A stretch of 20,148 nucleotides of DNA from the IMG/VR virus record IMGVR_UViG_3300042691_010316, positions 1 through 20,148 of that record, one strand, 5' to 3'. This DNA is from a virus. The notes beneath the pieces were generated by a model. It had not been told where the DNA came from. It worked only from the letters and a program-made list of their open reading frames with translations, and searched no databases. Positions 485 through 6,534 of the stretch are shown in pieces. Position numbers and translations under genes: made by a program. Each line of letters begins with the position of its first letter. Position 1 is the first letter of the stretch.

Positions 485-3028
485 TTACTCGCCGACAGCC
501 TGCGCGACGTCGACCGGGCGGACGCGGTCGGGGTCGGCCGGGTCCCACCAATACGTTGCACCGTTAAACGCCTGCTGGTTCGCCTGCATCCGGCGCAAGT
601 AGCCAGGGTTAGCCAGCTCCTGCATGTTGAAGAAGATGAGCCGGTCCGTGGCGGCCTTGGTGTACCAAAGGTTCGCGCCGGGGGTGTAGCCGCGGAGGAA
701 GCGCGCCGCCTCGGCGCCGAAGTCGGTTTCCTCGCCCTTGGCTGCCTGCTGGATGTTGCCGACCGTGAGCTTGAAGCCGTCCTCGATCAGCCCGACGGTC
801 GGGCCGCCCAAGGCGCCCACCAGCGTGCGGCCGAACGTGTTGGTGTCGGCGAACAGGAAGTCGCCGTAAAGCGACAGCGCGCCGCCCTTGAGCACCGCGG
901 CGAGGATGTTCTGCGCGCCGTGCTCGCCCTCGAAGGGGTTAAGGTTGCGCGGGTTGCGCCCCTGCAGGACCTCGTTGATCTGCATGGCGATGGCGCCCAT
1001 GAGCGTCTGCGTGGCCACCAGCGCGGCCAGGTATCCGACTTTGCTGGGGGTGTCCTTGTAGAGCGAGAGCGCCCGCCCCCAGTGCCGCATAATCATGGCG
1101 ATCGGGAAAGACTTGAACTGCAGCACGGAACGGATCAGCTCGCCCGGGACGGTGCCTCGAGCGGTGCCGGCGGTGAGCAGCGTGCGCTCGCGGGCGCCCG
1201 GCTCGATGACGGCGAAGTCGCGCTCGTCGAGCACAACCGCCAGGAGCTTGGTCGCGGCGCGCTCGCGCGCGAGCTTGGGGTCGACGCCCGGCATGATGCG
1301 GGCGACGTCGGTGTCGGAGATGGCGTAGATGCGCTCCGGGGTGAGCACGGTGTAGCCCTGCCCCCAGTCGTCTGGTTGCGCCGCGCGCCAGAGCTGCCAT
1401 TCGTCGGCCGTGATGCCCTTGCCGCGCAGGATGCGCCAGTCGTCGGGGTCGAGCTTCGAGACGTCTTCGAAGTCGCGGGTCAGCTGCCCGATGGTGTCCA
1501 GCATGGTGACGGAGAACGCGCGCCGGCGGGCCTCGGTCATGGCGTTCAAGCCCGACGCGCGCAGGACCGTCGAGGCGACCTTCTGCGCAACGTCGGTCCC
1601 CAGCGTCTCGGTGCCGAACCGGTCGATGTCGTCGAGCATGGTGTTGACCATAAGGCCGGCGCGCATAGCGCGGCGCTTCTCGGCCTGGTCCAGCGGGTTA
1701 AACGCCCGGACCTCGTTCATGAAGGTTTTGAACAGCGGGAGGTTGTTCACCTTGCTGGTGATGTAGAGCGTACCCTCGTCGGTCAGCGAGGTGATCGCCG
1801 CGGAGCCCAGCTTCGATGCGGTCATCCACGCGCGCAGCGAGGCCATGCCGTTGGCCAGCCAGCGACGCGCCGGCGGCGGGTTGTTGCCGGCGACGTGGTT
1901 GTAGAGGTCGGCCGCGCGCCGCGCCGTGGTCTCGATGTCGCTCGACTTCGCCGGGTCGGCCTTGACCGCCTCGGCGGTGTAGCGGTCGATGAAGTGCGAC
2001 ACGGCGAGGTCGGCGTTTGGCCCGAACTGCTCCACCAGCGCGACGTCGCGGGACATGCGCGCCACGTGGCCGGACATGGCCTCGAACACCGAGCGCCCGG
2101 ACCAGCGCTGCAGCGCGGCGACCGCGGCGTCGGGGTCCTTGAGGTGGATTTGCCGTGCCTGGTTGTTGCGGTTCGCCTTGATGGCGCCGCCCGGGCCCGA
2201 CTGCCCCGGCTGAATTGGCTTGTTCGCGCCGTCCGTCGCGATGGTGACGTAGGCCTCGCCGAGAAAGTCGCGCATCTCGGCATCGGTGAATGGCGTGCCG
2301 TCGGGCTTCACGTAGATCGAGCGGTCGACCCACCCCATGAACTCGTCGACGAACGCCTGCTTGCCCAGCTTGATCGCGACGTCCTGGTTCCACGCCTGAG
2401 GGAGCCCCCAGTTGTCGAGCTTGCCGACGTCACCGCCGGCCGCGTTGAAGCGCTGGCGCAGCGCGTCGGTGGCCTCGGCCCATGACTTCGCGGCCTTGAC
2501 CAGCTCCGGCGGCAAGTTGGCGGTGTCGCCGTAGACCGCGCGGATGAAGGCCTCCTCGGCCTTGCGGTCCGCCAGCAGGCCGAGCATGCGCGGCGAGATG
2601 GTGTCCCAGGCGTCAACCAGCTTCGACATCGTCGTCGCGGCGATGGCCTTGGCGTTGACCTCGGCGCTGGTGGCGTTGTTCTTGCCGTCACCCTTGCCTG
2701 CAATGAGGCGCTGCAGCGCGACCACCGGATTGGAGTCGGCGCCGCTGGCGACCTGCGCGGCGACGTAGTTCTCGACCCGGTCGTGCGCGATGATCGTCTG
2801 CGCAATGCGCTGCTTCTTGAGCTGGGCCTCGGCGACGAGCTCCTGCGCGGCGCGCTGGGCGCCCTCGGTGAGGCGCTGGGCCTGAGACAGCGTCTGCCAG
2901 CGGGCGGCGTCCTGCCGGGCGATCGCAAGCATGGCGTCGCGCACGCGCTGCTCGATGTTGCGCGACTCGGCGACGGTGATCGAGCGGCCGACAGCCTGAG
3001 AGACCGCCTGGATGCACTGGGCTTTCAT
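485..3028 (-). CDS. Large internal virion protein (847 aa) in the second half of the T7 gp16 slot
   Basis: This 847-residue protein starts at ATG 3028 inside the stop of the preceding gene (ATGA overlap), with AGGAG seven bases upstream. Residues 20-90 are charged and helical. The middle is soluble-looking. Residues about 660-685 (VGYLAALVATQTLMGAIAM) and 705-760 are hydrophobic or glycine-rich and could touch a membrane. The C-terminus has the sequence GANLWYTKAATDRLIF, then NPGYLRRMQANQQAFNGATYWW (split here as NPGYLRRM and ATYWW at about 808-828), a type of ending I associate with large phage virion proteins and proteins linked to polyvalent proteins. No catalytic motif is evident. Its place between the polyvalent protein and the tail fibre makes an ejected or channel-forming virion protein the best guess. 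The family assignment rests on pattern memory. Confidence 0.68.
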   Translation of the reverse strand: MKAQCIQAVSQAVGRSITVAESRNIEQRVRDAMLAIARQDAARWQTLSQAQRLTEGAQRAAQELVAEAQLKKQRIAQTIIAHDRVENYVAAQVASGADSNPVVALQRLIAGKGDGKNNATSAEVNAKAIAATTMSKLVDAWDTISPRMLGLLADRKAEEAFIRAVYGDTANLPPELVKAAKSWAEATDALRQRFNAAGGDVGKLDNWGLPQAWNQDVAIKLGKQAFVDEFMGWVDRSIYVKPDGTPFTDAEMRDFLGEAYVTIATDGANKPIQPGQSGPGGAIKANRNNQARQIHLKDPDAAVAALQRWSGRSVFEAMSGHVARMSRDVALVEQFGPNADLAVSHFIDRYTAEAVKADPAKSSDIETTARRAADLYNHVAGNNPPPARRWLANGMASLRAWMTASKLGSAAITSLTDEGTLYITSKVNNLPLFKTFMNEVRAFNPLDQAEKRRAMRAGLMVNTMLDDIDRFGTETLGTDVAQKVASTVLRASGLNAMTEARRRAFSVTMLDTIGQLTRDFEDVSKLDPDDWRILRGKGITADEWQLWRAAQPDDWGQGYTVLTPERIYAISDTDVARIMPGVDPKLARERAATKLLAVVLDERDFAVIEPGARERTLLTAGTARGTVPGELIRSVLQFKSFPIAMIMRHWGRALSLYKDTPSKVGYLAALVATQTLMGAIAMQINEVLQGRNPRNLNPFEGEHGAQNILAAVLKGGALSLYGDFLFADTNTFGRTLVGALGGPTVGLIEDGFKLTVGNIQQAAKGEETDFGAEAARFLRGYTPGANLWYTKAATDRLIFFNMQELANPGYLRRMQANQQAFNGATYWWDPADPDRVRPVDVAQAVGE

Positions 3029-6000
3029 GCCGAGCTCCTGAGGTAGCAGTTGATTGCAGCCTCGAAGCCCAGCGCGTCGTTGCCCGCCCGCGCGACGGCG
3101 ACGTCGGCGGCGATCAGTGTATCGGCCGCGGGGGCCGCGCTTCCACTTTCGGTGATGACCGTCATGCCAGGCCGCTCGGTGACGACCTGCAGCTCCGGCG
3201 TCAGTCCTTCGCTGGGAACACCACCGGCACGCCCGGTGCGTTCAGCGCCCGCCGGCGCTCGGTTTCCTTGTCCGCCTTGGCTCGCACCTCGTCCGGTATC
3301 GCCGGGTTCGCCAGGAACTCGGCCCAGCTCGGTCGATTCGCGGAGTTGTCGGATGGTTTCGGCGTTTTCATTCAAGTACCCTTTTTGGGCGAATTCATTG
3401 TAACCCCTTTCGTCCACGACCCGCAAGGCGCCGTCCTCGCCTTTCACGGCCAGCGGCTTGGCGTCGGCGCCCTGCGCGACGTCGTTGTCGAACAGGACCG
3501 CGGAGTCGGCCAGCGCGGCGTAGGTGTCGAACCCCTGCGCGAAGCCCTTGTGTGCGGCCAGCAGGTCGCGGAGCGGCACGTAGCGCATCTCTTTGCCGCC
3601 GGCACGCTTGACCGCGCGCTTGATCGCCGTCTCGGGCTTCACCGTGATGCCAATAAGGCGGATCTCGTAGCCCGCGGCCTTGAGGTCCTGCAGCTCCTTG
3701 AGTGCGGTCGCCGGGCTGCCCAGCGTGCGGTCGAGCACGACGTTGAACTTGCCGCCGACGGCACGGGCGAGCGCCTGCTTGTAGATAAGGCTCGACTCCT
3801 TGTGCACGACCCCGGCCGCGCGCGCGTCGCCGCGGCCGACGATGTCCCAGTATTCCGGGATGCCGCCCCAGCCCTCGGCCTTGTCGCCGACCTTGAAGCT
3901 ATCCGGATCCAGCGTGACGAACTCGTCGCCGACCTGCCCCATTTCACGCAGGCGGCGAAGGATCGTCCCCTTGCCCGAGGCGCCACCGCCGCCCATGACG
4001 AACGCGACCGGGCGGCCCGTGGCCGGCGCCTTGCCGGCAAAGCGCTGCTCGACCAGCTCGGTGCGCATGGCGACGCGCTCCGGCGACATGTCCTCGGCCC
4101 GGCCCTCGAGGAGCGGGTCGCCGTCGGGGATCGTGCGCGGCGGCGGGGCGAGCCCGAAGTTGGCCGCGTCCAGCTCGGCGGCCTTGATGTCCTCGTCGGC
4201 GCGCACCGGCATCTCGGGCTTGGTCGGCCGAAAAAGCGTGTCCTGCACGATGTCGGCGGCCTTCGCCGGCGCGGCCTCGGCGATCGCGCTGGCCAACAGC
4301 TGCTCCTTGGTCGGAGCGCCACCGCCCAGCATGTCGCCCTGCCCGGGGTTGCCGGCGGCGACGACGCGGTCGTAGTAGCCGACCATGGCGTCGGCCATGG
4401 CCCGGCCGCTGCGGGAGTTGGCGCCGACGAAGCGCAGCAGCGCCAGCGTGGCCGGCGACTCGCCAGGGTTGAACATGTCTAGCTGCGCCATCCAGCCCTC
4501 GACCGTCTGCCCGCGGTTGCGGATCGAGTCGTAGAGGTCGGCCATGCGGACGATCTCGTCGGAGAGGTCGAGCTGGTGCAGCTCGCCGCGCTCGATCGAA
4601 TCCTTGACCTCGGCCACCTTGGGCGCGACGCGGACCAGCGCGTTCGCCACGTTGCGCGCGCCCGGATCGGTGGACTCAACCAGGCGCTGCAGCGTCGTGG
4701 AATCGCCGTAGGCGCGGAACAACAGCGCGTTGCGCAGGCGGGTCATGCCTTCCTGCGACAGCTCGCCGGCGGCGTCGAACAGGGCCGCGCGCTGGCTGGC
4801 CGGGAACTGCGCAGCCCAGCCGCGCACGACGTCGCGCAGACTCGCCGCGGAGAGGTCGGCGCCGTCGGGAAGATCCACGCCGGAGAGCTGCGGCAGGCGG
4901 CCAGCGTCGACGCGGGCCTGCTCGAGCCCCGACATGCGCATCGCCCCGCCCTCGTTGGACAGGATCGCCGCGCGCTCGATGTCGACGTTCTGCTGCAGCA
5001 CGCGCACGAGCACCGGCTGCTGCATGCCCTCAACCTCGGCGCGGGTCATGCCGAAGCGCTCGGCGGCCTCGGCCAGCGCGGTGCGGTAGCCGGCGCCGGT
5101 GTCCATGCCGTAGGCCTTGCGGATGGCCAGCGCCCGGCCGTTGCCGGCGACGACGCGGCCGTCGGCCGTCATGGTCGGGGCGCCCACGTCCATGGTCGGC
5201 GTCTCGGTCAGCAGCAGACGCGGGTCGAGCTTGGCGGCGATCTCGTTGACCTGCAGCTCGGACGCGGCGCGGGTGCGGTCGCGGAGCTGATTCTCGGACA
5301 CGCGCGTCGTCGGCGCGACTTGCTCGGCTTCCATGAGCGCCCAGCGAACCGGCACGTATTCCTCGCCGACCTTGACCCCGTCCAGCCTGCCCACGCGCGC
5401 GCCGGCCTGCTCGAGCGAAGCCATGGCGGCATTGACGTCGATCAGCGGGGCGCTATCGTCGACCAGCCCGCGCGTCTCGAGCTCGCGCGACAGCGCGGCG
5501 ACCTCGTCGGCGAGGCCGGCGAAGTTGGTCTCCTTGAGCGCCTGGGCCAGTGCTCGGGCCTCAGCGGTCGAGCCCTGCCCCGGCTTGGGGATGAACCGGG
5601 CGCCGGCCATGCCGTCGGCGACGGCAACCTGCTGGCCGCCGAGCAGCTGCTCGGTCGCGGTGTCGAGCGCCTTCACGTGGGCCGCGCGAGTCTGCATGTT
5701 CGCCGGGATTCCCGGCGCGGTGTCGACCTCGGCATGGATGGCCGCGCGCGACACCATGGCAGCGTCGACGGCCTGCTGCGGCGGCCGGGCGCCGTTAGGC
5801 AGTACGCCGAACGCCGCGCCAAGCACCATGTCCGTCGCAACGGCCGTTGCGTCCAGCGCATCGTAGCGGGCCGCGATGTCGCCGTAGCCGGCGCCGCGCA
5901 GGTACTCGCCCATTGCGTAGCGCTGGCCAGCGCCGAGCGCGACGTTGACGCCCGCACCGGTGGCGACCTTGGTCAGCAGCTTGGCGCCCATGCTGGCCGG

Positions 6001-6534
6001 AGCGAGCACGCCCACGCCCGTCGCGAACGCGTCGATGCCGGCAGCGCGGAGCGCCGTGTCGCGGTCGACGCCCTCGCCCGTGAGGTCGGCGAACGTGCCA
6101 GTGCCGACAGCGCCGCCGGCGAGGATGGCGCCACCAGCCGGACCAGCGACAGCCGAGCCGATGATCGCCGGCAGCAGCACAGCGCCCGCGCCATAGCTGA
6201 TCTGCCCGGCGAAGCCCGTGGTCTGCGGGTCGGGTCGGTAATAGTCGATAGCTCCGCGGACCGCTTCGTCCTGCAGCCGCTCGTTCTCTCGGAACTGCTC
6301 GCCCTGCCCGAACAGCTCGGAAAGCCCTTCCTGCATTCGGTATGTGGGCGACTTCCGCGCCACCTCGAGAAGGAACCCGCCGGTCGTGGCAAGGCCGCGG
6401 CCGATGCCGAGGCCCGTAGCGGTGCCGAAGCCCTCGAACGCCGCCGGTCCGCCGATCTCGAACGTGCCCGGGCCCATGCCGGCGCCCTGCACAAGCTGGC
6501 GCTGCTCGCGCTCGTTGCTGGCAAGGAACGTCAC
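3025..6534 (-). CDS. Polyvalent phage protein: DdrB-type ParB-like domain plus zeta-toxin-type P-loop kinase (1169 aa)
   Basis: The start is GTG 6534, overlapping the preceding stop as GTGA; ATG 6477 (residue 20) is an alternative. Residues about 107-200 are Gly/Ala-rich and hydrophobic, suggesting membrane insertion. Residues about 395-480 match DdrB-type ParB-like domains: RVSENQLRDRTRA, EIAAKLDPRLLL, then VVAGNGRALAIRKAYG at 461-476. Residues about 840-1020 match the zeta-toxin family: FVMGGGGASGKGT (845-857, P-loop with G854-K855), LDPDSFK (875-881), HKESSLIYKQAL (911-922), VVLDRTLGSP (932-941) and a GYEIRLIGITV strand. Zeta toxins phosphorylate UDP-activated sugars such as UDP-GlcNAc. 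DdrB of phage P1 belongs to its defence-against-restriction set. Such fusions are known as polyvalent proteins. The gene sits where T7 encodes gp16, so delivery into the host with the DNA is likely. Residues 1056-1111 are a Gly/Arg/Ala-rich linker overlapped by another ORF. Confidence 0.85.
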   Translation of the reverse strand: MTFLASNEREQRQLVQGAGMGPGTFEIGGPAAFEGFGTATGLGIGRGLATTGGFLLEVARKSPTYRMQEGLSELFGQGEQFRENERLQDEAVRGAIDYYRPDPQTTGFAGQISYGAGAVLLPAIIGSAVAGPAGGAILAGGAVGTGTFADLTGEGVDRDTALRAAGIDAFATGVGVLAPASMGAKLLTKVATGAGVNVALGAGQRYAMGEYLRGAGYGDIAARYDALDATAVATDMVLGAAFGVLPNGARPPQQAVDAAMVSRAAIHAEVDTAPGIPANMQTRAAHVKALDTATEQLLGGQQVAVADGMAGARFIPKPGQGSTAEARALAQALKETNFAGLADEVAALSRELETRGLVDDSAPLIDVNAAMASLEQAGARVGRLDGVKVGEEYVPVRWALMEAEQVAPTTRVSENQLRDRTRAASELQVNEIAAKLDPRLLLTETPTMDVGAPTMTADGRVVAGNGRALAIRKAYGMDTGAGYRTALAEAAERFGMTRAEVEGMQQPVLVRVLQQNVDIERAAILSNEGGAMRMSGLEQARVDAGRLPQLSGVDLPDGADLSAASLRDVVRGWAAQFPASQRAALFDAAGELSQEGMTRLRNALLFRAYGDSTTLQRLVESTDPGARNVANALVRVAPKVAEVKDSIERGELHQLDLSDEIVRMADLYDSIRNRGQTVEGWMAQLDMFNPGESPATLALLRFVGANSRSGRAMADAMVGYYDRVVAAGNPGQGDMLGGGAPTKEQLLASAIAEAAPAKAADIVQDTLFRPTKPEMPVRADEDIKAAELDAANFGLAPPPRTIPDGDPLLEGRAEDMSPERVAMRTELVEQRFAGKAPATGRPVAFVMGGGGASGKGTILRRLREMGQVGDEFVTLDPDSFKVGDKAEGWGGIPEYWDIVGRGDARAAGVVHKESSLIYKQALARAVGGKFNVVLDRTLGSPATALKELQDLKAAGYEIRLIGITVKPETAIKRAVKRAGGKEMRYVPLRDLLAAHKGFAQGFDTYAALADSAVLFDNDVAQGADAKPLAVKGEDGALRVVDERGYNEFAQKGYLNENAETIRQLRESTELGRVPGEPGDTGRGASQGGQGNRAPAGAERTGRAGGVPSEGLTPELQVVTERPGMTVITESGSAAPAADTLIAADVAVARAGNDALGFEAAINCYLRSSA
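3201..3371 (-). CDS. Nested 56-aa ORF in the +1 frame inside the zeta/polyvalent gene; unknown function, candidate regulator
   Basis: The ORF starts at ATG 3371, with AAGGG about seven bases upstream, and ends at TGA 3201-3203. It begins MKTPKPSDNSANRPSWAEFL, continues through NPAIPDEVRAKADKETERRR and ends VPVVFPAKD. It therefore looks like a small soluble, mostly helical, charged protein. Third codon positions are G or C in 45 of 55 codons here. In the overlapping frame of the large gene only 30 of 56 are, against 19 of 20 around that gene's P-loop. Over the same stretch the large protein is a low-complexity Gly/Arg/Ala linker. An in-frame stop directly precedes ATG 3371, so this is a separate ORF and not a frameshift extension. 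I do not recognise the family. Its position just behind the kinase domain suggests an antitoxin or modulator, which is inference. Confidence 0.55.
   Translation of the reverse strand: MKTPKPSDNSANRPSWAEFLANPAIPDEVRAKADKETERRRALNAPGVPVVFPAKD

Follow-up and report, generated by a model that had tools for sequence, protein, structure and literature searches.

Genes for small antitoxins may lie inside toxin genes, as in the Rpn system, where the intragenic antitoxin RpnS is encoded within RpnL (Zhong et al. 2023, PMC10327210). Iyer et al. (2017, PMC5512222) noted zeta-like kinases within polyvalent proteins as well as fusions of such kinases to MuF domains of phages, and the role of the zeta protein of haloarchaeal tailed viruses is stated as unknown (PMC4284463). 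The locus studied here lies in the 20,148-base virus record IMGVR_UViG_3300042691_010316, referred to at its full length as the window. An open reading frame (ORF) for 56 amino acids, a candidate kinase partner and intragenic antitoxin, was found at 3201..3371 on the minus strand, which carries all window features given below. It is nested in the +1 frame of a host gene for a polyvalent virion protein (3025..6534), begins at host codon 1054 and follows a zeta-like kinase domain.

As in the Rpn pair, a small ORF inside a toxin-like gene starts internally, in the window at its own ATG behind a ribosome-binding site, the antitoxin role being a candidate one here. However, RpnS corresponds to the C-terminal portion of its toxin, whereas the nested partner is read in the +1 frame and has no residues in common with the host protein. 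The type II toxin-antitoxin systems epsilon/zeta and PezA/PezT have a homologous kinase (PF06414; structure 2P5T for PezT, and 6EPH for the second kinase family described below). Their antitoxin genes precede the toxin gene, whereas the nested ORF comes after the kinase domain; the nested protein matches no known antitoxin family, the partners considered here are about 39-90 amino acids long, overlap the kinase from downstream and are often fully nested, and the kinase often sits within a virion or polyvalent protein. The host gene has the architecture of the published polyvalent proteins, a ddrB-ParB domain plus effector domains, but the nested partner is undescribed in that report (PMC5512222), whose main text lacks the term 'overlap' and whose single 'zeta' passage is silent on it. 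The zeta proteins of HVTV-1, HCTV-1, HCTV-5 and HCTV-16 are likewise large, and their PF06414-like kinase is followed directly by a +1 ORF, although that ORF has no recognisable homology to the one in the window. In the literature searched, which was mainly open-access, zeta kinases were nowhere described as having an out-of-frame partner; novelty is therefore provisional, because subscription papers were mostly outside the search.

Coding signals of the nested reading frame

The first-pass annotation, made from the window's letters, had proposed an overlapping gene in this position. The nested ORF translates as MKTPKPSDNSANRPSWAEFLANPAIPDEVRAKADKETERRRALNAPGVPVVFPAKD (P0001), and the host frame across the same stretch reads NENAETIRQLRESTELGRVPGEPGDTGRGASQGGQGNRAPAGAERTGRAGGVPSEG, in line with the linker proposed there. 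The GC count at third codon positions (GC3) was 45 of 55 sense codons in the nested frame, identical to the earlier count, and the fall in the host frame was also reproduced (29-30 of 56-57 codons, compared with 0.89 for the whole host gene). Among 1114 sliding segments of 56 codons, the one with the lowest host GC3 begins exactly at the nested start codon (z ~-8.5). Synonymous-codon shuffles gave an expected count of 50.1 +/- 2.4, and a count of 30 was reached in none of 5000. The nested stretch stayed open in 97.5% of synonymous shuffles, so the openness of the frame is no evidence for a gene, and ORF length was rejected as evidence because an open frame is expected by chance.

The sole close relative of the window is the locus L002/L004 (IMG/VR 3300045921_000096). 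A comparison of site conservation per frame, which the first-pass annotation had suggested, showed changes at host codon positions 1, 2 and 3 of 13, 8 and 55 over 234 kinase codons and of 4, 0 and 2 over the 56 nested codons. Host-frame wobble substitutions drop from about 23% in the kinase to 3.5% in the nested stretch: host wobble sites, which are the second positions of the nested codons, are held, while nested wobble sites vary, and the nested proteins are 96% identical. When seven fused pairs were pooled, divergence at host positions 1, 2 and 3 was 0.099/0.063/0.281 in the kinases and 0.217/0.135/0.109 in the nested stretches. This fall at the wobble position with a rise at position 1 gave a Fisher p of about 1.6e-14, an approximate value that treats sites as independent. 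The pairs L123/L177 and L120/L122 showed a flat pattern without inversion. The pooled result disfavours a relaxed linker, because relaxation would not reduce wobble divergence.

A Shine-Dalgarno-like sequence, AAAAAGGG (3379..3386), lies 7 nucleotides upstream of the nested ATG. The ATG and ribosome-binding sequence noted earlier were thus found at the usual distance, with moderate strength (duplex energy -4.5; -7.9 in the close relative). The mean Shine-Dalgarno energy was -5.9 at nested starts versus -2.1 at other +1-frame ATGs within kinases (p 3e-18). A TGA in the nested frame (3372..3374), kept in L002, adjoins the ATG and argues against frameshift entry upstream of that point. The AlphaFold model of the nested protein is modest and helical (predicted local distance difference test score 68.6; helices at residues 16-20 and 27-44). 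Together, the codon signal, the substitution pattern and the recurrence described below strongly support coding status, and the ORF at 3201-3371 is very probably a real gene that would be translated from its own start.

A tblastn search with the 56-residue product returned three chance matches in phages and none in plasmids, and a scan of genome contigs for the nested protein gave no match. A degenerate motif scan for the same protein recovered the known relative alone. A relaxed motif matched five lake-virus contigs, which were rejected as unrelated and lacking a kinase. A search for the kinase in 399 genomes of one order, run without a positive control, gave no match at an expectation value (E) of 1e-10, a negative that for this reason carries no weight.

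Recurrence behind zeta-like kinases

A scan of epsilon15-gp16-like genes anchored on the gp17-like neighbour gene yielded 80 loci, and host GC3 dips with z < -7 were seen in the window, L022 and L029. The latter two carry a different zeta-like kinase, with a +1 ORF of 74-75 amino acids directly behind it. The kinase precedes the ParB domain in L022 and L029 and follows it in the window. When L022 is compared with L029, identity is 71% for the nested proteins and 40% for the host frame in the same stretch, and substitutions move to host position 1.

A scan with L022/L029-type kinases, which match the Zeta_1 toxin structure 6EPH, produced 80 loci of this second family; with L009, L022 and L029 the set comprised 83, all viral and including near-duplicates (60 distinct partner sequences, 34 distinct fused loci). 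At the kinase end, a +1 ORF of 40 amino acids or more was present in 83 of 83 loci, and a +2 ORF in none. At 47 loci the kinase is a standalone protein of about 300 amino acids ended by its own stop, and a small gene, starting upstream of that stop, overlaps the kinase 3' end and extends beyond it; at the other 36 the kinase is fused into a longer protein and the +1 ORF is fully nested. The partners are short proteins, probably helical, whose N-termini vary; the partner group of this family is defined here by a C-terminal motif, ..LNxx... A profile made solely from the C-termini of standalone partners, beyond the kinase, matched nested C-termini with E values of 4e-9 (L185) and 1e-8 (L180), the best of them scoring above every shuffle. 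Roughly twelve others matched it with scores reached by 0-2 of 200 shuffles. In about 15 cases the nested C-terminus is recognisably homologous to that of standalone partners. A drop in host GC3 across the nested part was seen in 32 of the 34 distinct fused loci.

A second, tandem +1 ORF of about 60 amino acids with an ASIR motif lies 76-184 nucleotides beyond the kinase end in L119-L122. It is not claimed as a gene, as its substitution pattern showed no inversion; conservation of the host frame may itself dictate the motif.

In the isolated haloarchaeal viruses HVTV-1, HCTV-1, HCTV-5 and HCTV-16, the +1 ORF directly behind the zeta kinase encodes 39-44 amino acids and carries no gene annotation. 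It lies at 69727-69846 in HVTV-1 (KC117377.1) and at 72114-72233 in HCTV-1 (KC292029.1). Acidic proteins are usual in halophiles, and the nested product is acidic (isoelectric point 4.05); the host linker under the ORF in HCTV-1 has an isoelectric point of 12 within a host protein of 4.1. In two halovirus pairs the substitutions shift as in the other nested stretches.

The enclosing gene and its neighbourhood

The host gene (3025..6534) encodes an epsilon15-gp16-like polyvalent virion protein of 1169 amino acids (P0002), whose N-terminus matches phiV10/SPN1S-type phages. Its Zeta_toxin (PF06414) kinase domain spans residues 837-1008 (3511..4026; E 2.2e-31; 109 bits, compared with a curated cut-off of 22.3), contains the Walker A P-loop GGGGASGKGT and an LDPD motif, and matches the PezT structure 2P5T with E 4e-4. 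A ddrB-ParB domain (PF18763) occupies residues 393-513 (4996..5358; E 9.8e-27). Between these two domains the polyvalent gene of the relative has an in-frame TAG (L002:997-999; TCG in the window), which would reflect gene decay, an error in sequencing or a protein split in two. The gene for a gp17-like pilot/ejection protein (485..3028) overlaps the host gene stop by 4 nucleotides. With its ddrB-ParB domain, gp16-like N-terminus and adjoining gp17-like gene, the host gene has the features of the polyvalent, epsilon15 gp16-like group, and by analogy with gp16- and gp17-type relatives its product would be packaged into the virion and injected.

The C-terminal tail of the host protein (3028..3204; ..TERPGMTVITESG..AADVAVA..GFEAAINCYLR) is similar in gp16-like proteins with other effector modules, the resemblance being seen directly in L008, L009, L066, L084 and L062/L079-L081. 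In the gp16-like genes L008, L009, L025, L066 and L084, the N-terminus and tail are constant and the effector slot is exchanged. The slot holds two zeta families, a weak RelA/SpoT match or an ADP-ribosyltransferase (ART), an organisation resembling polymorphic-toxin cassettes. In L062 and L079-L081, which carry another effector module, a conserved and similar +1 ORF (..TPESPARAKERELFQRMARVKQYPIAPDEEP..) precedes the tail (host codons 1173-1235 in L079). A host GC3 dip (z ~-6) also covers a +1 ORF at L025:1130-1402, just before the ART-PolyVal domain, and this ORF is a possible nested partner of the ADP-ribosyltransferase effector. In L009, a dip with z -6.7 lies near the N-terminus, away from the kinase, at host codons ~130-180.

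Role of the nested product and alternative explanations

The first-pass annotation had also tied the nested ORF to the zeta-like kinase in front of it. This tie is supported: genes that otherwise differ have the arrangement directly behind their zeta-like kinases, and beside standalone kinases the partner is a separate overlapping gene. The nested product is quite likely a dedicated kinase partner, and an inhibitor or antitoxin would be its more probable function, a step that we take with less assurance. The explanation that we favour as a whole, with somewhat better than even confidence, is that of a real overprinted gene whose product is a co-inherited partner of the kinase and probably an out-of-frame intragenic antitoxin. 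The ancestral unit would have consisted of a kinase gene whose 3' end was overlapped by a small gene downstream. The kinase may then have been recruited into longer proteins, for example epsilon15-gp16-like ejection proteins, with the host frame kept open across the partner gene, which would thereby have become fully nested, leaving the low-complexity linker as a by-product in the host polypeptide. Most likely the 56-residue product would bind and silence the kinase in the virion-producing cell, and the kinase, packaged and injected within the larger protein, would act in the new host without its partner.

Several observations weigh against this explanation. P0001 had no match in Pfam, NCBIfam or PADLOC and a weak match in PHROGs (E 0.05), and the partner in the window has one close homologue only. 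Against the profile of second-family partners P0001 gave E 3.5, with 56 of 200 shuffles scoring equally high, and within that family the profile also failed to match some nested C-termini, among them those of L022/L029 and L009. Chance alone would give a +1 ORF of 40 amino acids or more in about 22 of the 34 distinct GC-rich fused loci; ORF presence is therefore weak evidence, and weight is placed on the codon, substitution and Shine-Dalgarno evidence. The first-pass annotation had held that kinase homologues lacking the frame would speak against the gene. Such homologues occur among distant relatives, as the cyanophage PSS2, the Bacteroides phage DAC16 and the plasmid zeta toxins pLPE-9K and pRA2 have no such ORF, and the partner is thus missing from part of the kinase superfamily; even so, the close relative keeps the frame and the haloviruses have counterparts of it.

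It is unlikely, though well worth considering, that the product is a real partner other than an inhibitor, namely a chaperone or adaptor for virion loading or export competence, or an activating subunit. All loci are viral and the host proteins sit among virion and ejection genes, and the partners, being short, probably helical and variable at the N-terminus, resemble small chaperones. However, standalone kinases of some 300 amino acids have the partner too, and it follows the kinase on either side of the ParB domain, tracking the kinase rather than the packaging tail.

Ordinary linkers in other parts of gp16-like genes go down to a GC3 z of about -5, and in GC-rich genes chance often produces long +1 ORFs, observations that would suit a low-complexity linker whose odd codons and low substitution reflect chance or an RNA element, with no second gene. 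This is very improbable, given that the window reaches z ~-8.5 with dip boundaries matching the ORF, that in the seven pooled pairs wobble divergence goes down as position 1 goes up, that nested products are homologous to separate genes, and that an acidic product lies under a basic linker in the haloviruses. Translation of the nested stretch only within a frameshift product, as an alternative C-terminus of the kinase protein, would fit the use of the +1 frame every time, but it is more improbable still: the TGA adjoins the nested ATG in the window and L002, strong Shine-Dalgarno sites stand ahead of the starts, and standalone kinases stop by themselves, with the partner start upstream of that stop.

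Returning to the antitoxin explanation, we regard it as about an even chance that zeta-like kinases of tailed viruses of bacteria and archaea generally carry a +1-frame immunity protein across the kinase 3' end, overprinted by a linker in injected proteins, forming an inseparable effector-antidote unit that annotation misses. A conserved hidden partner, if true, would explain how the producing cell survives virion zeta kinases and would make the role of the kinase testable in isolated viruses. It would also extend genes-within-genes antitoxins from in-frame to out-of-frame cases, and GC3 and substitution-pattern tests could expose further missed partner genes in polyvalent toxins. The locus would then be an example from nature in which the by-product appears to be the overlapping host frame rather than the small gene.
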